NCBI GenBank assembly: GCA_013697245.1
Contig: JACCXH010000030.1
Span: 1-36,298 of the forward strand
Direction: 5' to 3'
Origin: Bacteroidota bacterium
GTDB taxonomy: Bacteria; Bacteroidota; Bacteroidia; B-17B0; Aurantibacillaceae
DNA: 36,298 bases
Below the pieces are notes generated by a model. It saw nothing but the letters and a program-made list of their open reading frames with translations, had not been told where the DNA came from and did not search any database. A program made the position numbers and the translations under genes. This document shows positions 2,376-28,721 of the stretch, piece by piece; the stretch's first letter is position 1; each line of letters opens with the position of its first letter.

Positions 2376-3425
2376 ATGAAAATCTCTGCACAAAATTCAA
2401 AAAAAACCTTAATCAACTTTAGGTGCTCTCTCGGAAAGGCTCTGATGATTGCTCTAATAATACCTGCTATTGCTGTATCTCAAACCTCACCGGCGCCGGT
2501 GAATCTTGGAACTTCCGGCAGTTTCGTGGCTCTTGCAAAAACAGGAATTTCAACTACAGGAGCCACTTCAATTGTTGGAGATATTGGGGTTAGTCCTAAT
2601 AACGCTAGTTCCATAACTGGATTTGGTTTAGTGGCAGATGCCTCAGGTGAATTTTCAACTTCATCTTTAATTAATGGAAAAGTTTATGCAGCAAACTACG
2701 TGGCTCCAACCCCTGCAAAAATGACCACTGCTGTGAGTGATATGCAAGCTGCATACACCGACGCAGCCGGACGAGCACCAAATTTTACCGAACTATACAC
2801 TGGAAATCTTACCGGACAGACCTTAACTACCGGTGTTTATAAATGGAGTACCGGAGTTCTGGTATCAGCCGGAGGCTTTACTATCTCAGGCAGCTCAACG
2901 GATGTGTGGATCTTCGAGATCGCGCAGAACCTAACTGTAGCTAACGGAGCCACTATTACTCTTAGTGGAGGTGCAAAGTCATCCAACATCTTCTGGCAGG
3001 TGGCCGGCCAAGCTAGCCTTGGAACAACATCCAGCTTCAGAGGAATCATATTATGTCAAACATTGATAAATATACAAACAGGAGCAGCTTTTGATGGAAG
3101 AGCGCTATCACAAACCGCTGTTACATTAGATGGCAATAGTATAAACAACAACAGTACGTTAGGTCTTGCCGATCTATATCTTGAAAATGGCATCACTATG
3201 TATCCAAACCCGGCTCAAAATAATGTCACCATCAAAAATTCTAACAGCATCAAATTGGATCAGTTAGCTATTTTCGATGTATACGGAAGACTGATCCATT
3301 CGATCGATCTTCGTGATATGCAACAAGAGAAAATTATTGATGTCTCTAACCTATCATCTGGCGTGTACATGTTACAGATCCAGGGTGATGGAGCGAGAAC
3401 AACAAAACGATTGATTAAGAGTTAG
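2376..3425 (+). CDS. Probable ice-binding protein (DUF3494) with T9SS sorting domain
   Basis: The 349-residue product has a signal peptide (hydrophobic 21-35, cleavage after AVSQ), one DUF3494 beta-solenoid domain at about 40-255, and a T9SS type A sorting domain at about 270-349 (MYPNPAQNN, then GVYMLQI). Diagnostic DUF3494 segments include LGTSGSFVALAKTGIST, GDIGVSP, ITGFGL, GVYKW, NIFWQV and FDGRALSQTAVTLD. This closely resembles characterised bacterial ice-binding proteins, which adsorb to ice and prevent recrystallisation or freezing of the surroundings. It would act outside the cell. Base composition looks richer in G+C than the surroundings: I counted 59 of 120 bases in 2821-2940. Ice-binding genes of this family are known to move horizontally. 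A DUF3494 adhesin without ice activity remains possible. Confidence 0.88.
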   Translation: MKISAQNSKKTLINFRCSLGKALMIALIIPAIAVSQTSPAPVNLGTSGSFVALAKTGISTTGATSIVGDIGVSPNNASSITGFGLVADASGEFSTSSLINGKVYAANYVAPTPAKMTTAVSDMQAAYTDAAGRAPNFTELYTGNLTGQTLTTGVYKWSTGVLVSAGGFTISGSSTDVWIFEIAQNLTVANGATITLSGGAKSSNIFWQVAGQASLGTTSSFRGIILCQTLINIQTGAAFDGRALSQTAVTLDGNSINNNSTLGLADLYLENGITMYPNPAQNNVTIKNSNSIKLDQLAIFDVYGRLIHSIDLRDMQQEKIIDVSNLSSGVYMLQIQGDGARTTKRLIKS

Positions 3426-12514: not shown

Positions 12515-14137
12515 TTATTGTTGTGAAACTAATTTACCTGAATGTATAGCTTTATTATTGCTGATCACTTTATAAAAATAGATTCCTGCAGCAAGGTTTC
12601 CGGTTTCAATTGTAACAACAGGGGTTGTAACAGATCTATTCATAACTTCTACACCCAATGCATTGTATAACTTGAATTCGCAAGTGTTTATTTTTGAAGC
12701 TTCAGTTATATTAACCTCAATAAATGTTGTGAATGGGTTTGGGAAAACTTTAATATTGTATGGATTTCCTGCATCGTAAGAATGAATACCCACATTAACA
12801 CAGCCAGAAGGGAATGTATTTGCAGTAATAGTAGTGGCAGCGGTTGTTAAAGCTCCGGTAGTTGTTAATGCACGTCCATCAAATATAACGCCTGTATTTA
12901 TAGCACCTAATGCGCCATTATTACATATAACAGTTCCTCTAAACACCGAATAATTATTGATACTCGCACCACCTTCAATTTTCCAGTATACATTTTTTGC
13001 CTGTGCCCCATTAATTAATTTAACTTTCGCATAAGTACTTGTAGTGAGTGCACCGTTTATTTGTATAACAAAAACCGCATTCACATTACCCAAAGCATTT
13101 AAATAAAGCGAATCAACAAATGTTGCAGCACTATTCATACGATAGGTATGTGGCGTAAGTACTAAATTATTTCCAAACTGTGCCGGATATAATAATTCAA
13201 TATCATAGGGCAATGTATTTACGTAAGTGTATGCTATTAAAAGATCATTCGCAGCTTGCGCAGTAGAACCATCCGGAATAGTATGTGTAGTGCCAGCTAC
13301 CAAAGCCGGATTGTAACCGGTAACAGGCCCGTTATTACTTCCAACATCGCCCGTAATTTGAGTTACACCCGTATTTGAAACAGCGCCGTTAGAAGAAAAA
13401 ACCGCATAACACCCTGCAACACCTAATACTGGAGCTGTTGGCCCCGTAAGCACAGGACTACCACAACCAATTGGTGTATATGCAAATGCATTATCTATCG
13501 TAACAGCTCCGGTAGTTGAAAGAGCTCTTCCTTCAAGCGTATCGCCTGTGTTTATATTTATGGCCGCATTATTAGCAATAATTGTTCCTCTCATAGTTGC
13601 GCCAGAAGCCATGCTTACCAAACCTTCCACTTTCCAAAACACATTACAGGCTAAAGCGCCATTAATTAATTTTACTTTAGAAGAGGCGTTTGCAGAGAAT
13701 GCACCCTGTATCTTAAAAATAAATACAGCATTGGGATTATTTTGTCCATTTAATATAAGATCAAGATTTAAGGTAGCATTACTGCCTATTGAATATACGC
13801 CTGCATTAAGCATTTGCCCGTTACCTAAAAGCGCTGCAGGAAAAAAGCCCGGAACAGTTGCGTTTAACTGATTATAGGCGATCAAAAGATCCGCTGCACA
13901 TTGCGCGCTTGCACCATCATTATCATGCATTACACCGTTCACATTTCCAAAAGCAGTGCTAGAACCGTTATTCGTTCCCACGTTGCCGGTAATTTGTGAA
14001 ATGCCGGTATTACTGACAGCACCATTTGATGAAAATAGCACAAAGTTAGCAGCGGTACCTAAATTAGGAGCCTGTGCAACAGTTAGTGCAGGAGATAATA
14101 ACGTAAAAATCGAAACGACTAGTAGTAATTTTTTCAT
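12515..14137 (-). CDS. Tandem DUF3494 protein with T9SS sorting domain
   Basis: The product is 540 residues from the chosen start (signal peptide MKKLLLVVSIFTLLSP, cleavage near VAQ). Two DUF3494 domains follow, at about 25-225 and 240-440. Each carries NFVLFSSNGAVSNTG or YAVFSSNGAVSNTG, a GDVG/GNVG step, AVFIFKI or AVFVIQI, NVFWKVEG or NVYWKIEG, and GRALSTTGAVT or GRALTTTGALT. The last ~80 residues are a T9SS type A domain (VFPNPFTTFIEVN, GIYFYKV). It is of the adhesin-like DUF3494 kind rather than the compact ice-binding kind at 2376; ice binding is not assured. The in-frame ATG at 14167 adds ten residues before the signal peptide and is less likely. Upstream lies a noncoding module shared with the other DUF3494 gene. 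Confidence 0.87.
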   Translation of the reverse strand: MKKLLLVVSIFTLLSPALTVAQAPNLGTAANFVLFSSNGAVSNTGISQITGNVGTNNGSSTAFGNVNGVMHDNDGASAQCAADLLIAYNQLNATVPGFFPAALLGNGQMLNAGVYSIGSNATLNLDLILNGQNNPNAVFIFKIQGAFSANASSKVKLINGALACNVFWKVEGLVSMASGATMRGTIIANNAAININTGDTLEGRALSTTGAVTIDNAFAYTPIGCGSPVLTGPTAPVLGVAGCYAVFSSNGAVSNTGVTQITGDVGSNNGPVTGYNPALVAGTTHTIPDGSTAQAANDLLIAYTYVNTLPYDIELLYPAQFGNNLVLTPHTYRMNSAATFVDSLYLNALGNVNAVFVIQINGALTTSTYAKVKLINGAQAKNVYWKIEGGASINNYSVFRGTVICNNGALGAINTGVIFDGRALTTTGALTTAATTITANTFPSGCVNVGIHSYDAGNPYNIKVFPNPFTTFIEVNITEASKINTCEFKLYNALGVEVMNRSVTTPVVTIETGNLAAGIYFYKVISNNKAIHSGKLVSQQ

Positions 14138-14192
14138 TTTATTTAGATTTATATGATTAAACTTCACACAAGATTAAGTGCTTGGTTAATCC

Positions 14193-14913: not shown

Positions 14914-15819
14914 TTATTTTCCTGCGGTAATCTTCATGTATTTGTTAGTGTTAGCCGGATCAACCAACATTAAGGTCTCTAATGCTTTATTTTGCTCTTC
15001 GGGTAAGCCTCCTTTAAAAATGTTAACCAATTCATCCGCTTTTGCATTAAAGAACAATTGCATATTAAAAGAAGCAGGCCTGGCAGAATATACCGGTTTT
15101 AGCAGGTCTAACGATTTTAAAACATTTGCTCTTCCCTCTTCTACTTTCTCATTCATAATATCTAAACCATTGCGACAGTATTCGTAATTACAATTTCTGA
15201 TCCCTTTAAAAACAGGCTGCAATGTATTTTCTATTAGCCAATAACGGTTCTTATTACTTTCATTGCTTCTCCAACCTTTTTCTGCTGCTGTTTGTGCGTT
15301 GTTAACTATTAATTGCGCTTTTTGCCAATACTCGGTACCACCAAGTGGCGCATAAGAATCTCCGTCAATTGCCAACACTACATAAGCATAATACGCTAAA
15401 ACAGAAGTCAAATTATTCTGGAAAGTTGTTTCGTTAAATTCTAAAGCTGAGAATTGTTGGAATTTAAATTGAAAATTATCATCCTCGTAATTAAATACAG
15501 GCGTATAATATGAACTTTTAAATACCGGTCGGCGGCTTTCTACTTGTATCGAACCTGAAAAATCCTCGGTGCTTAAAGCTTCTTTTACATTAATAAATAC
15601 CGAACAATCTATTCGCTCCGGAGTAGTATAAATTTCTTTAGTCCATTTTTTATTATTCATAAATTCAAAAATGGCTTTTTCTAACTGATCAAAGATCTGC
15701 TTATTGGTTGTACCCTGAATTTGTGTGTAATTAATTTTTACCTGGCAATTTAATTCTTGTGCAAAAGAATTTGATCCTGCAAAAAGTAATGCAATAATTA
15801 TGGAACAAAGTTTTTTCAT
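14914..15819 (-). CDS. DUF4835 secreted protein, envelope/T9SS-associated
   Basis: The 301-residue product has a signal peptide (MKKLCSIIIALLFAGSNSFAQ) followed by the full DUF4835 pattern: LNCQVKINYTQIQGT, an FEFMNNKKWT segment, PVFNYEDDNFQFKF, and LTSVLAYYAYVVLAIDGDSYAPLGG. In Bacteroidota this family usually follows coaBC in the bamD cluster, and some annotations name it PorD, a T9SS-associated protein; I treat that name as tentative and leave the symbol empty. It starts 3 bases after coaBC, which implies co-transcription and probably translational coupling. In many Flavobacteriia recN comes next, but here a convergent DUF1003 gene follows. Confidence 0.85.
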   Translation of the reverse strand: MKKLCSIIIALLFAGSNSFAQELNCQVKINYTQIQGTTNKQIFDQLEKAIFEFMNNKKWTKEIYTTPERIDCSVFINVKEALSTEDFSGSIQVESRRPVFKSSYYTPVFNYEDDNFQFKFQQFSALEFNETTFQNNLTSVLAYYAYVVLAIDGDSYAPLGGTEYWQKAQLIVNNAQTAAEKGWRSNESNKNRYWLIENTLQPVFKGIRNCNYEYCRNGLDIMNEKVEEGRANVLKSLDLLKPVYSARPASFNMQLFFNAKADELVNIFKGGLPEEQNKALETLMLVDPANTNKYMKITAGK

Positions 15820-21351: not shown

Positions 21352-24300
21352 ATGAGATTAAGGTTTTATACCTTATTTAACGTTTTATTACCCGAACTGA
21401 AAATTGTTAAAAAAACTATCGTTTTATTGACATTGATAATTTCTTGCCCAGTTTTTTCTCAAAATGTTTCTATTGAAGATATCAAAAAGGAAGCCAATAA
21501 ATTATTCGAGGATGATGAATTTACAAAGGCTTACAAACTATACGCACAGTTAGTTTCCAATTATCCAAAAGATCCGGAATACAATTTTAAACTTGGGGTT
21601 TGTATGATATACAGCGAGCCCGATAAAATGAAATGCCTGCCCTACCTCAATTTTGCTAATAGCCATGCCGACGAGGCGCCGAAAGAGGTGAAGTTTTACT
21701 TGGGCAAAGCATATCACATTAATTACCGCTTTGATGAAGCCATTAAATATTATAACGAATATAAAAAAGTAGGTTCCTCATCTAAACAAAAAAAATTAAT
21801 GGTCGATCGGGAGATCATTTCCTGCGGCTATGGTAAACGCTTGTTGAGCAATTTATCTGACCTTGAAGTTAAAACCAAAAAACAATTAAATGAGGCCGAT
21901 TATTTTAGAAGTTACGACCTAAAGGATATTGGCGGAAAATTATTAATTAAACCCGAAGCCTTTAGAACAGCCGCCGATAAAAGAAAAAAAGAAAAATCTG
22001 TAGTTTATTTACCTCGCAGCGCCGATAAGGTTTTTTTTAGCAGTTATGGAGAAAATACAGATAGTAAAGACATTTATTATGCGGTGAAACTGGCCAATGG
22101 CGAATTTGCAAAACCTGTAAAACTAAATGGTATTAATACAGATTATGATGAGGATTACCCATTCCTGCACCCCAACGGCAGAACACTTTATTTTGCCAGT
22201 AAAGGTCATAACGGTATGGGGGGTTACGATATCTTTAAATCAGATTATATTGATGCAACCGATTCGTGGACACAACCTGTGAACCTTGAATTTCCTATAA
22301 ACTCGCCGGATGATGATTATTTATACGTAACCGATTCACTTGAAAAAGTAGCTTATTTTAGTACCGGCAGGCAAAGTCCGCCGGGTAAAATTGATGTACT
22401 AAAAATAAGTACCGAACGTAAGATCATCGATATCCTTGCGCTTAAAGGTACTGTTGTAAAAGAGAACGCCGGGCAGAGTTTAAAAAGTAAGGTCACTGTT
22501 AAGAACATGGGTAACGGCGAGATAGTTGGTGTTTATGAAGCAGAAGATAATGGCAATTATAATATGGATCTTCCTAATGGCGCAAAACTATTATACACCG
22601 TTGAAACACCCGGTTTAAAAACGCAATCAGAAAGAGTTGGCTTACCACTTGCTACAAGCTCAAGACCGTTAAAACAAACCATTTCATACGACAGAGGTAT
22701 TTTAAAAATCCTTAACTACTTTGATGAAACACCCACCGACGAAAGTTATTTACAATACTTAAAGCTCATCGAGAAAAAATCAAAGCTTGATGTAAATGAA
22801 GGAGAGAATAAACTTGGCCCAACCACTCTTGATACAACTGCAAAAAATAATGTAGCAGTTAATACAAATACCAACACCGGGCCCACTATTGTTGATGCGG
22901 GAGTTGATACCACAAATAAAACGGCCGTAACAAATACCATAGCAGTAGTAGCTACAAAAACAGTGGCTGCTGTATCAAATAAAGAGTTGGTAAATATTGC
23001 CAAACAAGATGCCAACGATTCTAAAAAGGAAGCTGCACAATTACAGCAGGATGAATGGGATGCCGAGCAATTAGGGGAACAAAAGAAAATTGATGCCAAT
23101 AAAAAATTAACCGAGGGAGAAGATATAGTTAAGAATGCGCAAACAATTACCAACGAAGATGAAAAAAATAAGGAAATAGAAAAAGGTAATGCCATTAAGG
23201 CAGATGCTGAGAACGAATTAGCTGTAGCCAATAAAATTTTAGACTTTGCCAATAAGTTAAAGGAAGATGCTGCCAATAAACAAAAAGAAGCCATTTTAAA
23301 CGAACAGTACGCAAACGAACTTGCAAAAATAAACATTAATAAAAATAAAGACAACAAAGAATCTTTAGCCAAGCTGGATGATCTGCAAAAACAAATTGCC
23401 CAACTATCCAACAAAGAAAAAAGCTCTGATAACCTTTATAAATCTATTAAAGATAATGTAGAGCAAAAAGAAAAAGAACTGGCTATAGCTGAGAAAAATA
23501 ATAATGCTACTAACACTAACCTACAGGAAATTAAAACCGAAGTTGCCAGCAATGAAGCTGAATTGGCAAAAACAAAAAAGAAAAAGGATAAAGAGGTTAT
23601 AAATAACCAAATCACCGAACTTAAGACCGAGCAAATAGAAAAAGAAAAACAGGTTGCGCAAAATCAAACTGAGATCAAAAAATTAAATGATGAACTAGCG
23701 GCGTTAAAAAATGAGTTAGATCTTGCAACAAAAATTAAGACAGAAACTATTGCAGCGGCAAAAACAACAACTATTAATAACAACACGAGCAATCCAAATG
23801 AAAATACAACTTCCATTGGAAACAATACTACAACAACGGCTACTGCATCAAATAAAATTACCGATAAGGTATTAAAGGATAAGTATAAAGATAAGATCGC
23901 AGTAACCGATATCAATAGTCCGCAAAATTATATCGCAAGCAATAAACAAATTTTAAGCTACAATAAAGAAATAGATGCCGCAATTGCCAATGATAAAAAA
24001 GAATTAGTAAAAGCAAAAACTGATGCAACAAAACAACAGATTGCCAATGATATAAAACAATTAGAGTCCACTAAAAAAGAAAATAACCAGCTAATTGCAA
24101 CAAATAATAAACAAATACAAACGCTTAACGCTGATATTGCAAAAAACAGTACTGCAACTAATTCAACTGAAAAAACAATTAACCTTAACCCTATCGATGC
24201 CAAAAATAATAATGAAGCTATAAAAAATCTTGACGATCTTAATAATCAATTGAATGGTAATGATAATGCCAACTTTGAATACAACTCATACCAAAATACC

Positions 24301-27300
24301 GAAGCGCAAAAATTAAAGATAGAAGCCGATTCGAAAATAAATGACGCAGTTGCCCAACAGAAAAAACTAAAAGATATAATTGCCACCACAAAAGATGAGA
24401 TTCAAAAATCCGGTAATGGAAACAACAATGCCAATGCAACACCCACGCAATTAAATATTGAAGCGGAAGAACTATATACAAATGCACAAAAATTAAAGAA
24501 CGATGCGCAAACCAAGACCGGCGCTGATAAAGAAAAAATATTAACGGAAGCAAAAGCTTTAGAAGATAAAGGAAATGAAAAGAATTTACAAGCCGCCGAA
24601 ATTGCCAAGAATGATAACGCCGCAGTTTACAATGTTAATCTCGAAAATATAAATGCATTGATCGCAGCCAATAAGTCTTCTGAAGCTGATATAACAGAAG
24701 CAAAGAAAATGAACGAGGAAGCAGCAGTTGCTTTTAAACAAGCTGCTGCCATTAGAGTTGAAGCTAATTCCTTAACAAACGTTGGCGCAAAATTAGGCAG
24801 CATGAGCAATGCGGAAGAAAAAGAAGCCTGGGCGCTTAATAAACAACAGGAAGCAATTAATCTTCTAAAAAAATCAGATCCTTCGTTAACTTTAAAAACC
24901 GCCTTAACTTCAACATCGTCGATTAAAGTAGTAAAAGACGACAATACTATTAACACCAAACTGCAAGCCGTTAACACCGAACTAAACAGTCTTGCTGAAA
25001 CCAAAACAGCTGCTTACCAAAAATTATACGACGCAAACGTTTTAGAGCTGGAGCAATTAAACAATAGCTTAAAAACCAATGAAACACTTATTTCAAATAC
25101 ACCCAGCTTAAAAAGTGAATCAATTGCCGCTATTAATAAAGTAGCGGCTGCCGCTGGTCTAAAACAAAAATCAGATGCCGATGCGAACAATACAGATAAA
25201 TTAAACGACCTTATTGCAGCAACTAAAAAACAATTGGAAGCTGTTAATCAATTAAACGGTTTAAACAAAAAAGTGAGCAACCAGTTAGTAGCTAACACAA
25301 CAAAAGATAATTCTACTAAAGATAATTCTACAAAAGATAATACAACTAAGGACAATGCAGTTGCTACAAAAGATAATGTGACAAAAAATAATTCAACTAA
25401 AGATAATACTACGAAGGATAACGCTGTTGCTACAAAAGATAATACAACTAAAGCTAATTCTGCAAAAGATAACACAAATACAAATAAAAACAATACCACT
25501 AACGAAAATGCTACCTTAATAAAAGACAATACAACTAGCACTGCTGCAAAAGTGGTAGATACAAAAACAGTTGGTGTAAGTGAATTAAGTAAAACAGACA
25601 CAACCGCTAATCAATTGTTAGGTTATTTTGAGAACAAACAACCTACAATTCTTAAAAATCCACAGGCAAATCGTCAAAAAAATAATGCCATAACCGAACT
25701 AAAAAACACAGATCAAGAAAACAACGCGGTTGAAGCAGAAATAAAAACATATAAAGAACAAAACCCAACAGCTACATCTAATACGGTTACCCCGGCGGAA
25801 CTTAAAACAAAAGCAGATGCTTTAATTGTTGAGGCAGAAGAACTAAGTACTAAATCGTTTGACCTAAAAACTAAAGCTAATAGCACTTCCGCTACTGAGA
25901 AAGATAGTCTTATTGCAAAAGCAAATGAATTAGAAAATACTTCCCAGGGTAAAAAATTGGAGGCTTCTATTTTAAACGAACAAAGTAATGCCATAGACTA
26001 TAAAACAAACAATAATGCTATCACCGAACTATTAACTAAATTAAAAAGCGAGAACCCTACCCTAAATATAGAGTTAGAACAAAAAAATAATGAGATAACT
26101 GTTTTAAAAACGCAGGCACAAAAGTTAAGAGAAGAAGCAAACGCACAATCTAATACTGCTGCTAAAGTTGGCGCGTTAAGTAATGTCGAAGAAAAAGAAG
26201 CAGAACTGCTTATTAAGCAAAATCAATTAATTACAGAGTTAAAGAAACAATACCCTGATTATGTTGTTAAACCTTCCACTATTGAGAGTACTTCTGGTTT
26301 ACCAACGAACTTAGCTTTAAAACAAAAACAGGTTCAAGATAAACAGGCATTAGAATTAACCAGTTTAACCAATGCTTTAAGTTTAGAGTATGAAACAGCT
26401 AAGACCTATGTGCCAAAAAATTTAACTGCCGATGAGAAAATAGTAAAACAAAATGCAGATGAATTAAATACAGAATCAAAACGTTTATTAATTAAATCAA
26501 CACAGGAACAAAACCCTGTTGAAAAAACAAAATTGCTTGCTTTAGCAGCAAAAACAGGCGATGCGGCAGTTAATCAATTAAGTAAAATTACCGGCGATAA
26601 AGTGGTTGCAAATAATACAAACCCACGAAATAATAACGCAACTAACCCAAATAACAACACAAGTAATCCAAAGAATAATACTACCAATACCAATCCTCGA
26701 AACAATAACAATACTGCAAATAATAACACAACAAATACTAATCCACGAAACAACAATACTACTAACCCGAATAACAATATCATTGCGAATAACACTAACA
26801 ACCCAAGAAATAATACAACCAACCCTGCTGTAAATAATATAAAAGGAACCGTGAAGATAGAAGGTTTAGAAGTTGTTTCGGGTAATGCTTATAATGCCGC
26901 TAAACCAATTCCGGTTGATGCTAAAATGCAGGATGGACTTGTTTTCAGGGTACAGATAGGTGCTTTCAAAAGTCAATTAGCAAATGATGCCTTTAAAGGT
27001 TTAAGTCCTTTAAACGGCGAAACTGTTGGCAATGGTTATATCCGTTACACCGCAGGTAACTTCGTGAAATTCGAAAATGCAAGCGCTGTAAAAAATGACC
27101 TTCGCAATTTAGGATATAATGATGCTTTTGTGGTAGCTTACTTTAACGGCAAACGCGTAACCGTTGCTGAAGCAATTGAATTATTAAATAAAGAAGGTAA
27201 AACGATCGATAACAATGCGCCAACCTCTGCAGGTATCACAGCTAATTCAAACGTGCCTAAAGTAAATGCAACAACCGTAACTCAAACCAATTTTAATTCG

Positions 27301-28098
27301 AGCGAACCTGTAAATGTTACCAAAGAGTTAGAACAAATAAATGGTTTATTATTTACTGTTCAGATTGGTGTTTATAACAGGCAAGTAAGCAAAGGTCAGT
27401 TAAGGAACCTTGGCCCAATCTTTAGCGAGAAATTACCTAACGGCTTATACCGCTACACAGCAGGTATCTACAGCGATCCTGAAAGATTATTAACAGATAA
27501 ACGACGCGTTACCGAAGGTTATGTGCGTGATGCATTTGTAAGCGCCTACTTAAATGGTAAACGTATAACTTTTGCAGATGGTAAAAACAAAAAAGCGAAC
27601 GATACAACCATAAAATTAGAAACACAAAATCCAATTGTTTTCCCTGAAGGTGGCGCCGTTATTAATACACCGGTTAACAACACACCTGTTGTAAACACAC
27701 CTGTTGTAAACACACCTGTAAATAATACGCCGGTTAGCAATACACCAACCGTGCAACCATTTACAAATGGTGTAACCACGTACCCAGCTGCTACTGCCGA
27801 AAATGGTGTTAAAGCTACTGAAGAAGGTGTAAGCTTTAAAGTACAAATTGGAGCTTACAGCAAACAGGTGCCAAATGATGTGGCTGCCAGATTCTCAGCA
27901 ATTAAAGCCTGGCCGGTAGAAAATAAATTAATTAACGCGCTGTATATTTATAATATCGGTAATTTTACAGATGCTAAATTTGCTAAAACGTTAAAAGAGC
28001 AAGCCGTTAGTATTGGTATTACCGATGCGTTTATTACAGTTTATAAAGACGGTAAAAAAGTTTATGGCGCTGAAGCTACCGCTTTATTAAACAAATAA
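21352..28098 (+). CDS. Giant PorE-like/coiled-coil/SPOR envelope protein
   Basis: The 2,248-residue exported protein has, in order, a signal sequence ending near 37 (LIISCPVFSQ, where LIISC could also be a lipobox); TPR-like helices at about 44-143; PD40 propeller segments at about 215-355 (DYDEDYPFLHPNGRTLYFASKGHNGMGG, paraphrased by its DYPFLHPNG and GGYDIF motifs); a carboxypeptidase-regulatory-like beta-sandwich at about 362-450; an Ala/Lys/Glu/Asn-rich helical region at about 543-1750; Asn/Pro/Arg repeats at about 1753-1826; and three SPOR-like domains at about 1861-1945, 1997-2085 and 2159-2248. The first 450 residues match the layout of T9SS PorE and of OmpA-type anchors. SPOR domains bind denuded peptidoglycan, so the protein probably links an envelope complex to the septal or growing wall. 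No OmpA domain is present. The n-region before the signal core is unusually long. It is followed after 2 bases by a hydrolase gene. Confidence 0.85.
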   Translation: MRLRFYTLFNVLLPELKIVKKTIVLLTLIISCPVFSQNVSIEDIKKEANKLFEDDEFTKAYKLYAQLVSNYPKDPEYNFKLGVCMIYSEPDKMKCLPYLNFANSHADEAPKEVKFYLGKAYHINYRFDEAIKYYNEYKKVGSSSKQKKLMVDREIISCGYGKRLLSNLSDLEVKTKKQLNEADYFRSYDLKDIGGKLLIKPEAFRTAADKRKKEKSVVYLPRSADKVFFSSYGENTDSKDIYYAVKLANGEFAKPVKLNGINTDYDEDYPFLHPNGRTLYFASKGHNGMGGYDIFKSDYIDATDSWTQPVNLEFPINSPDDDYLYVTDSLEKVAYFSTGRQSPPGKIDVLKISTERKIIDILALKGTVVKENAGQSLKSKVTVKNMGNGEIVGVYEAEDNGNYNMDLPNGAKLLYTVETPGLKTQSERVGLPLATSSRPLKQTISYDRGILKILNYFDETPTDESYLQYLKLIEKKSKLDVNEGENKLGPTTLDTTAKNNVAVNTNTNTGPTIVDAGVDTTNKTAVTNTIAVVATKTVAAVSNKELVNIAKQDANDSKKEAAQLQQDEWDAEQLGEQKKIDANKKLTEGEDIVKNAQTITNEDEKNKEIEKGNAIKADAENELAVANKILDFANKLKEDAANKQKEAILNEQYANELAKININKNKDNKESLAKLDDLQKQIAQLSNKEKSSDNLYKSIKDNVEQKEKELAIAEKNNNATNTNLQEIKTEVASNEAELAKTKKKKDKEVINNQITELKTEQIEKEKQVAQNQTEIKKLNDELAALKNELDLATKIKTETIAAAKTTTINNNTSNPNENTTSIGNNTTTTATASNKITDKVLKDKYKDKIAVTDINSPQNYIASNKQILSYNKEIDAAIANDKKELVKAKTDATKQQIANDIKQLESTKKENNQLIATNNKQIQTLNADIAKNSTATNSTEKTINLNPIDAKNNNEAIKNLDDLNNQLNGNDNANFEYNSYQNTEAQKLKIEADSKINDAVAQQKKLKDIIATTKDEIQKSGNGNNNANATPTQLNIEAEELYTNAQKLKNDAQTKTGADKEKILTEAKALEDKGNEKNLQAAEIAKNDNAAVYNVNLENINALIAANKSSEADITEAKKMNEEAAVAFKQAAAIRVEANSLTNVGAKLGSMSNAEEKEAWALNKQQEAINLLKKSDPSLTLKTALTSTSSIKVVKDDNTINTKLQAVNTELNSLAETKTAAYQKLYDANVLELEQLNNSLKTNETLISNTPSLKSESIAAINKVAAAAGLKQKSDADANNTDKLNDLIAATKKQLEAVNQLNGLNKKVSNQLVANTTKDNSTKDNSTKDNTTKDNAVATKDNVTKNNSTKDNTTKDNAVATKDNTTKANSAKDNTNTNKNNTTNENATLIKDNTTSTAAKVVDTKTVGVSELSKTDTTANQLLGYFENKQPTILKNPQANRQKNNAITELKNTDQENNAVEAEIKTYKEQNPTATSNTVTPAELKTKADALIVEAEELSTKSFDLKTKANSTSATEKDSLIAKANELENTSQGKKLEASILNEQSNAIDYKTNNNAITELLTKLKSENPTLNIELEQKNNEITVLKTQAQKLREEANAQSNTAAKVGALSNVEEKEAELLIKQNQLITELKKQYPDYVVKPSTIESTSGLPTNLALKQKQVQDKQALELTSLTNALSLEYETAKTYVPKNLTADEKIVKQNADELNTESKRLLIKSTQEQNPVEKTKLLALAAKTGDAAVNQLSKITGDKVVANNTNPRNNNATNPNNNTSNPKNNTTNTNPRNNNNTANNNTTNTNPRNNNTTNPNNNIIANNTNNPRNNTTNPAVNNIKGTVKIEGLEVVSGNAYNAAKPIPVDAKMQDGLVFRVQIGAFKSQLANDAFKGLSPLNGETVGNGYIRYTAGNFVKFENASAVKNDLRNLGYNDAFVVAYFNGKRVTVAEAIELLNKEGKTIDNNAPTSAGITANSNVPKVNATTVTQTNFNSSEPVNVTKELEQINGLLFTVQIGVYNRQVSKGQLRNLGPIFSEKLPNGLYRYTAGIYSDPERLLTDKRRVTEGYVRDAFVSAYLNGKRITFADGKNKKANDTTIKLETQNPIVFPEGGAVINTPVNNTPVVNTPVVNTPVNNTPVSNTPTVQPFTNGVTTYPAATAENGVKATEEGVSFKVQIGAYSKQVPNDVAARFSAIKAWPVENKLINALYIYNIGNFTDAKFAKTLKEQAVSIGITDAFITVYKDGKKVYGAEATALLNK
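24463..26600 (+). repeat. Internal duplicated helical module in the giant gene
   Basis: A protein module of about 140 residues occurs at residues ~1038-1180 and ~1495-1637, offset by about 458 residues. Landmarks keep register: AEELYTNAQKL with AEELSTKSFDL, and GAKLGSMSNAEEKEA with AAKVGALSNVEEKEA. A partial third copy begins near residue 1702 (ADELNTESKRL). The copies have diverged, so the duplications are old. Confidence 0.6.
25297..25520 (+). repeat. Coding 12-bp tandem repeats (TKDN)
   Basis: Units encoding TKDN, STKDN or TTKDN are repeated, and a longer block ending DNAVATKDN occurs twice. The nucleotide copies differ mostly at third positions, yet remain close enough for slippage or recombination to change copy number without breaking the frame. 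They form a flexible linker inside the helical region. Confidence 0.7.
26611..26829 (+). repeat. Coding Asn/Pro/Arg-rich repeats
   Basis: Repeats of NPRNNNTTN and NPNNN type form a disordered linker between the helical region and the first SPOR domain. A similar shorter linker of NTPVVNTPVNN type (27661-27750) separates SPOR domains two and three. Confidence 0.7.
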
Positions 28099-28100
28099 AA

Positions 28101-28721
28101 TTGAATTCTATCACAGAAATAAAAGATCTATCCAACCAGCAATTTATTGAGAAATATGCCAAACAAGCTTGCGTGGGTTTAGTTGGCGGTACTCATTTTA
28201 TTGACCAATCGATCAAAAAACATCAAAAAAAGATCACTTCGCACGGAAAAGAAAGTTTATGGTCGCACGCTTTAATTTTTAATGAAATAAGACAAGATGG
28301 AAAATGGTGGGTTGTAGAGTCAGACCTGGAATTTTATAAAAAGCAAATGCGCGTTGGTGTGCAGGAAAACCGGGCGGATAAATATTTTGATAAAGCCCTA
28401 TTTTCTAATATTGCCATTCTTGATTTTAATTTAAATAAAGAAGATCAAAATAAAATAATAGCCGAAGCACTAAATTTAGTAGCACTTAGAACAGAATACA
28501 GTATCCGCGAAATATTTGGTGTTCTATTTTCACTTACCGGAAAGAATAGGAACGCAGAGAATTTATTGGCTCAGGAAAATTCCTTTTTTTGTTCTGCCTT
28601 TGTGCAACACTGTTATAATAGTATTAATTTAGACTTTAATAAAGATGTTTCTACCAAACATTTAACGCCTGAAGAGATCTTTGCTACCGATCAAAAATGT
28701 TCTATCACCGTTTTATTGTAA
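28101..28721 (+). CDS. YiiX-like permuted papain-fold hydrolase
   Basis: The 206-residue protein has the order expected for permuted NlpC/P60 (YiiX/YaeF-like) hydrolases: a catalytic His in SLWSHALIF (His56), an acidic residue in VVESDL (Glu73), then the nucleophile in FFCSAFVQHCY (Cys164). The family cleaves amide or ester bonds in peptidoglycan, lipids or proteins; the substrate here is unknown. No signal peptide is present, so it may be cytoplasmic. The start is TTG 28101: the first in-frame Met is residue 83, after the catalytic His, and the only upstream alternatives before a stop are ATA 28095 and ATT 28086. It begins 2 bases after the giant SPOR gene stop, so the two are almost certainly co-transcribed and coupled. 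Confidence 0.78.
   Translation: MNSITEIKDLSNQQFIEKYAKQACVGLVGGTHFIDQSIKKHQKKITSHGKESLWSHALIFNEIRQDGKWWVVESDLEFYKKQMRVGVQENRADKYFDKALFSNIAILDFNLNKEDQNKIIAEALNLVALRTEYSIREIFGVLFSLTGKNRNAENLLAQENSFFCSAFVQHCYNSINLDFNKDVSTKHLTPEEIFATDQKCSITVLL

Follow-up and report, generated by a model that had tools for sequence, protein, structure and literature searches.

PorE (NCBIfam NF052230; Porphyromonas gingivalis) and CHU_0125 (NF053607) are both outer-membrane proteins that bind the cell wall (PMC7192894, PMC5891637). PorE is described as an acylated lipoprotein in which an N-terminal TPR, a beta-propeller (residues 167-435) and a CRD are followed by a wall-binding C-terminus (PMC7192894). CHU_0125 (656 aa) combines a TPR and PD40 head with a wall-binding OmpA end, and its deletion is reported to harm outer-membrane integrity and to raise vesiculation (PMC5891637). 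SPOR domains offer another grip: RlpA touches the glycan with its Q270, R302 and R309 side chains, F274 packs on it, and the domain requires denuded glycan, which is enriched at septa; FtsN Q251 and R285 are the counterparts of RlpA Q270 and R309 (PMC6895207). In the Tol-Pal system, the propeller belongs to TolB and the OmpA domain to Pal. To our knowledge, the SPOR proteins FtsN, DamX, RlpA and CwlC are far smaller than the protein described in this work and have no TPR/PD40 head, and the way in which the outer membrane is held and constricted in dividing Bacteroidota is, as far as we know, not settled.

The window analysed here (the whole stretch of DNA, 36,298 nt) encodes a giant protein composed, from the N- to the C-terminus, of a probable signal peptide, a TPR/PD40/CRD head, a segmented middle and three SPOR domains (Table 1). 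Sequence comparison revealed relatives in other genomes that span its full length, which ruled out a chance or spurious ORF. Its architecture, the conservation of this architecture and the assignment of the SPOR domains with their key binding residues are established in this work. Searches of open-licence literature found no paper describing this architecture (the query “PorE” also retrieves “pore”), and the giant, conserved across many Bacteroidota, has seemingly not been described before.

Besides the signal peptide, no transmembrane or cytoplasmic part was seen in the protein by eye. By pattern search alone, only this giant and two near relatives among the 52 family members have a lipobox-like IISC motif, so the family overall looks soluble after export, in contrast to the lipidated PorE. 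Because this lipid anchor is not conserved, attachment to the outer membrane is something we infer.

Table 1. Coordinates of the features of the giant protein and of neighbouring genes in the window.
Feature	Position (nt)	Strand	Basis and remarks
porD (T9SS), Pfam name DUF4835	14914-15819	opposite to giant	PorD 360.7 bits, cut-off 170
Whole giant ORF	21352..28098	+	2,248 aa; uninterrupted; orthologues found
Probable signal peptide, residues 1-36 (...SCPVFSQ)	21352..21459	+	By eye; compared across the family
TPR-like helical domain, residues ~41-156	21472..21819	+	Weak TPR matches; modelled helices, second half of low pLDDT
PD40/propeller-like region, residues ~226-353 (Pfam PD40 261-295)	22027..22410	+	Pfam; TolB fold match; low pLDDT
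Carboxypeptidase-regulatory/transthyretin-like beta sandwich, residues ~358-460	22423..22731	+	Fold match; CarboxypepD_reg in the family
Helical segment 1, residues 543-779 (helix lengths 54, 61, 18, 50 and 36 residues)	22978..23688	+	Model, block pLDDT mostly 86-95
Asn/Thr/Ser-rich linker, residues 790-845	23719..23886	+	Composition
Helical repeat, two copies, residues 1033-1090 and 1119-1176	24448..24879	+	Family profile
Low-complexity TKDN-type linker, residues 1302-1407	25255..25572	+	Composition; DNA tandem repeat inside
Helical segment 2, residues 1481-1752 (further helical repeats at 1490-1547 and 1579-1632)	25792..26607	+	Model; family profile
Asn/Thr/Ser-rich linker preceding the SPOR tail, residues 1740-1837	26569..26862	+	Composition, repeat search
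SPOR domain 1, residues 1861-1941	26932..27174	+	Pfam, profiles, contact residues
SPOR domain 2, residues 1997-2077	27340..27582	+	Profiles, contact residues
SPOR domain 3, residues 2158-2242 (lacks the binding arginine)	27823..28077	+	Profiles, fold match, contact residues
Next ORF, weakly YiiX/C92 permuted papain-like amidase	28101..28721	+	Pfam 17.7 bits, cut-off 27; 3 bases after giant

The PorE-related head

The order TPR, propeller, CRD, which the original prediction had assigned to the first 450 residues as a PorE layout, was borne out by Pfam and by fold matches, with a propeller region that was short (about half as long as residues 167-435 of PorE) and modelled with low confidence; the propeller fold is a tentative assignment. 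The Pfam PD40 domain reached 26.8 bits in the giant (cut-off 20.9), and TPR scored under its Pfam cut-off in this protein. Among 42 family N-termini (a subset of the 52 giant family proteins), PD40 was matched in 38, CarboxypepD_reg in 23, and TPR_16 and TPR_14 in 37 each (Pfam, E up to 0.1). The sandwich model was similar to the PepT2 ectodomain (Z 9.5, 90 residues, rmsd 2.5) and the propeller region to TolB 7mx5 (Z 8.5, 101 residues, rmsd 3.3), the single TolB row among the fold matches. Foldseek gave nothing at E < 0.001 for the N-terminal model, and the rows of a second fold search were dominated by the transthyretin-like domain.

The NCBIfam models for PorE and CHU_0125 matched all 42 N-termini scanned. 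The best NCBIfam score for the head of the giant was that of CHU_0125 (91 bits, positions 242-477 of 639, cut-off of 620 not reached), and the match to PorE was partial (79.9 bits, cut-off of 600 not reached; 70.8 bits over model positions 297-473 of 648 in the genome-wide search); with the full-length giant, the NCBIfam scan gave zero matches. The giant differs from PorE in having no OmpA domain or conserved lipobox, a much shorter propeller region, and an additional neck of about 1,390 residues with a SPOR tail; it differs from CHU_0125 in its length (2,248 versus 656 aa) and in carrying SPOR where CHU_0125 has OmpA. It shares with Tol-Pal a PD40-type propeller and, putatively, wall binding, but is a single polypeptide with SPOR instead of OmpA and no TolB_N, a domain absent from the Pfam scan of the giant and from its own genome and present in 2 of the 119 genomes of the class sampled for it.

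OmpA was not found in the giant by the Pfam scan (E up to 10), nor was the giant among the 32 OmpA matches of its genome. The idea of a PorE whose OmpA end had been replaced was not supported: this genome also contains 56 PD40 matches, 16 ORFs carrying both PD40 and OmpA (paired by contig and frame length, by eye), and, as its best PorE match, a different gene (690 aa) scoring 494.2 bits versus 70.8 for the giant. Since these 16 ORFs and the far stronger PorE match coexist with it in one genome, the giant looks like a paralogous lineage rather than a converted PorE. No gene of the genome, this best candidate included, passed the PorE cut-off of 600. In a related genome (G016), a 985-aa ORF (L113:3925-6882) contains PD40 twice and matches the head of the giant twice, and is likely a tandem duplication of that head.

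Segmented middle and SPOR tail

About 1,200 helical residues had been predicted to form a single giant coiled coil, some 180 nm long when extended; the coiled coil was not confirmed, and the 180-nm helix was rejected. The structure models span residues 21-780 and 1480-2248, and their two helical segments consist of helices of 18-61 residues with turns between them; with 0.15 nm for each residue, the longest of these would be about 9 nm. Five Asn/Thr/Ser-rich stretches (residues 495-529, 790-845, 917-946, 1302-1407 and 1740-1837) break up the middle (about 1,390 residues in total), and heptad periodicity exceeded the 95th percentile of shuffles in 10% of windows, versus 5% expected. Because of the interrupting linkers and this small heptad excess, coiled-coil character is confined to parts of the middle; one rigid helix was ruled out by the short modelled helices, the linkers and the weak heptad signal.

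The DNA tandem repeat within the TKDN-type linker (25300-25477) has a period of 66. Self-BLAST of the giant found no internal repeats; a family profile of the repeat detected four copies of a helical repeat in this protein, and the repeat was present in 36 of 52 family members. Across the 48 members with at least two SPOR domains, the length of the middle had a median of 1,290 and a standard deviation of 238.

The three C-terminal SPOR modules of the original prediction were confirmed by Pfam, by a SPOR profile built on family members and by the predicted fold. Scanned alone, the C-terminal region of the giant scored 29.4 bits with Pfam SPOR (cut-off 21, one stretch passing singly), and all 10 C-terminal regions scanned in this way, this one included, were matched (E up to 1); in the full-length giant, the score was 16.6 bits, under the cut-off, and the gene was absent from the matches of the genome-wide SPOR search. 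The beta-alpha-beta-beta-alpha-beta fold was present in the model of the tail (block pLDDT about 50-84 in the SPOR domains), with the CwlC SPOR domain (1x60) as best Foldseek match (E 0.023, nothing reaching E 0.001; TM normalised by target 0.75). VIA-align gave Z values of 6.6 for CwlC (74 residues, rmsd 2.5) and 5.9 for the RlpA SPOR domain, both alone and with glycan, lower than the value of 8 that this tool treats as telling, below which a match can reflect a common arrangement. This SPOR profile, trained on the giant family itself and searched in the last 700 residues, counted three SPOR domains in 44 of the 52 proteins; of the other eight, 4 have two domains and 4 have one.

The residue register was set by profile matches to CwlC and FtsN together with the published contacts (PMC6895207; Q270, F274, R309 and R311 of RlpA were compared), and residues were counted over 39 of the 44 members with three SPOR domains, five near copies being excluded. 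The glutamine, phenylalanine and arginine corresponding to Q270, F274 and R309 were all kept in SPOR1 (39/39). SPOR2 kept the glutamine in 39/39, had arginine in 34 and lysine in 5, and carried tyrosine or phenylalanine at the F274 position in 38/39. SPOR3 had the glutamine in 32/39 and the arginine in just 2. The R311 position was not kept (threonine or serine in most members). Because these contact residues, which the first two domains share with FtsN, DamX, RlpA and CwlC along with the SPOR fold, are kept in SPOR1 and SPOR2 and the arginine is lost in SPOR3, the first two appear binding-competent and the third appears changed; SPOR3 may not bind glycan, since the arginine is missing in 37/39. 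The proposed junction of a PorE-like head with SPOR modules was supported, the key glycan-binding residues being kept in two of the three domains.

The SPOR1 profile aligned weakly with the SPOR domain of FtsN (E 0.21), with the residues matching FtsN Q251 and R285 kept, and the SPOR2 profile also had a weak lipoprotein match. The SPOR3 profile also hit designed PPR proteins of the PDB; no stretch passed by itself, and these hits were discarded as repeat artefacts.

Four shorter relatives of the giant (L077, L078, L100 and L105) have one SPOR domain and represent an ancestral or a reduced form; the first three keep a clpS-nfeD-floA neighbourhood and L105 keeps clpS. In the own genome of the giant, a 798-aa ORF (L110:1079-3475; G000:C52) resembles PorG weakly over one stretch (42 bits, cut-off 130) and carries a C-terminal SPOR domain (Pfam 35 bits); it may be an outer-membrane protein that has a SPOR grip of its own.

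Distribution and gene neighbourhood

A wider search revealed that the architecture is not confined to this locus: the head was matched (E <= 1e-40) in 131 of the 296 sampled genomes of the class, belonging to 64 of 165 genera and, by our count, to 32 family codes, and three SPOR domains were present in most of the proteins inspected (44/52). The full architecture was checked in these 52 proteins; a few of the 131 head matches are short or contig-end frames. Left out of the 52 were a near copy (L025), contig-end cuts (L031 and L071), a different PD40 protein (L035), a gene split over two contigs (L075/L076), L085 (identical to L032), and the short stretches L005-L023 and L036-L065. Since more than half of the sampled genomes had no head match at this threshold, the function of the giant is dispensable there or otherwise met. 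In the N-terminal tree most families cohere (family f5 does not), a pattern expected from vertical descent; the clade that unites the giants against four paralogues had a support of only 54.

The genes recurring near the giant in the 52 loci, a few of them not adjacent and some loci ending early, encoded ClpS (21), PlsY (18), M48 (14), NfeD (9) and FloA (9). Among the 34 loci outside family f1, PlsY and/or ClpS were present in 29 (both in 9), PlsY mostly directly upstream and ClpS directly downstream of the giant. None of these recurring neighbours (plsY, clpS, M48, nfeD, floA) is a known division gene.

At this locus and in near relatives, the giant sits between T9SS cargo genes and the C92-like ORF. 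The latter adjoins the giant in 5 of 52 loci, exclusively in near relatives; it is probably not a constant partner and was rejected as an operon partner. Upstream of the giant, other families encode a conserved protein of some 1,500 aa that was matched by neither Pfam nor NCBIfam (L066:9689-14206; in the own genome, G000:C46:54115-58539). It was found in 240/296 genomes of the class and near the giant in 16/52 loci; being commoner than the giant, it was discarded as a dedicated partner. The window also encodes two ice-binding-like proteins (2376-3425 and 12515-14167), each bearing a T9SS sorting tail, which may hint at a cold habitat.

Possible roles of the giant protein

The best reading of the giant is a protein built like PorE or Pal but gripping the wall differently. 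We lean, by a small measure, towards an exported tether that would be recruited to denuded, probably septal, glycan and would link an outer-membrane-side scaffold to the wall; its place at the outer-membrane side and at the septum, its partners, its binding to glycan and its tethering role are what we infer from its relatives. By analogy with PorE and CHU_0125, the head would hold partner proteins at the outer-membrane side of the periplasm, and the middle (about 1,300-1,390 residues), in which short helices and helical repeats are interspersed with flexible linkers, would serve as a long compliant neck. SPOR1 and SPOR2 at the least would bind peptidoglycan strands without stem peptides, which could be produced by Amidase_3 enzymes (two matches in the own genome). 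Glycan binding would recruit the giant to sites of amidase action, chiefly the division site, and the septal wall would thereby be coupled to the outer-membrane-side scaffold.

A general anchor between outer membrane and wall, similar to Pal or CHU_0125, acting along the whole cell and using SPOR to hold denuded strands anywhere with no septal preference, is the alternative that survives best, and we consider it unlikely. The CHU_0125 model fits the head slightly better than the PorE model does (91 vs. 79.9 bits), the genome holds 16 PD40+OmpA ORFs, and the loss of CHU_0125 damages outer-membrane integrity and raises vesiculation (PMC5891637). However, the wall grip of the giant is SPOR and not OmpA, and the RlpA SPOR domain depends on the denuded glycan enriched at septa (PMC6895207).

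The T9SS or gliding scaffold of the original prediction, tying the secretion machine to the wall, is possible, weakly supported and, in our view, quite improbable. The relation of the head to PorE in 42/42 members, the presence of SprA, the T9SS translocon, in the own genome and the six genes with T9SS sorting tails within the window agree with it, as does porD, a modest point, which lies on the other strand about 5.5 kb upstream of the giant, in a bamD-coaBC-porD cluster, with T9SS cargo genes in between. This nearness of porD and cargo genes stood, but it is restricted to near relatives (BamD in 7/52 loci, CoaBC in 6/52), and other families have plsY, clpS, M48, nfeD or floA instead; moreover, a far better PorE candidate exists elsewhere in the genome. 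SprA was detected in 288/296 genomes, with or without the giant, versus 131/296 for the head, and one head carrier (G092) had no detected SprA. Because SprA is nearly universal, its co-occurrence is uninformative for or against a T9SS role, and it was discarded as decisive evidence.

An FtsN-like divisome activator, brought to the septum by its SPOR tail and stimulating septal wall synthesis or amidases through head or neck with no tethering, is very improbable: SPOR1 aligns, weakly, with FtsN SPOR (E 0.21) and keeps the Q251 and R285 equivalents, but no transmembrane or cytoplasmic part was seen by eye besides the signal peptide, the head is of the wall-anchor type, and the head match is missing in more than half of the class sample.

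A more specific form of the favoured septal tether, doubtful at present, would make the giant a tether for outer-membrane constriction in Bacteroidota, built as one polypeptide: its TolB/PorE-type head would hold partners at the outer-membrane side, the long flexible neck would allow these to follow, and the SPOR domains would latch on to septal glycan when amidases denude it. If this were true, the giant would fill at the septum the role that Tol-Pal has in proteobacteria, within a class where canonical TolB is rarely detected (TolB_N in 2/119 genomes). Judging from the giant and the PD40+OmpA proteins of its genome, TPR/PD40 wall anchors seem to grip the wall in at least two ways, through OmpA and through SPOR, both used within a single genome. 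Widely conserved and uncharacterised, the giant is a candidate for keeping the outer layers of the cell attached to the wall at division, and its localisation is predicted to depend on denuded glycan.
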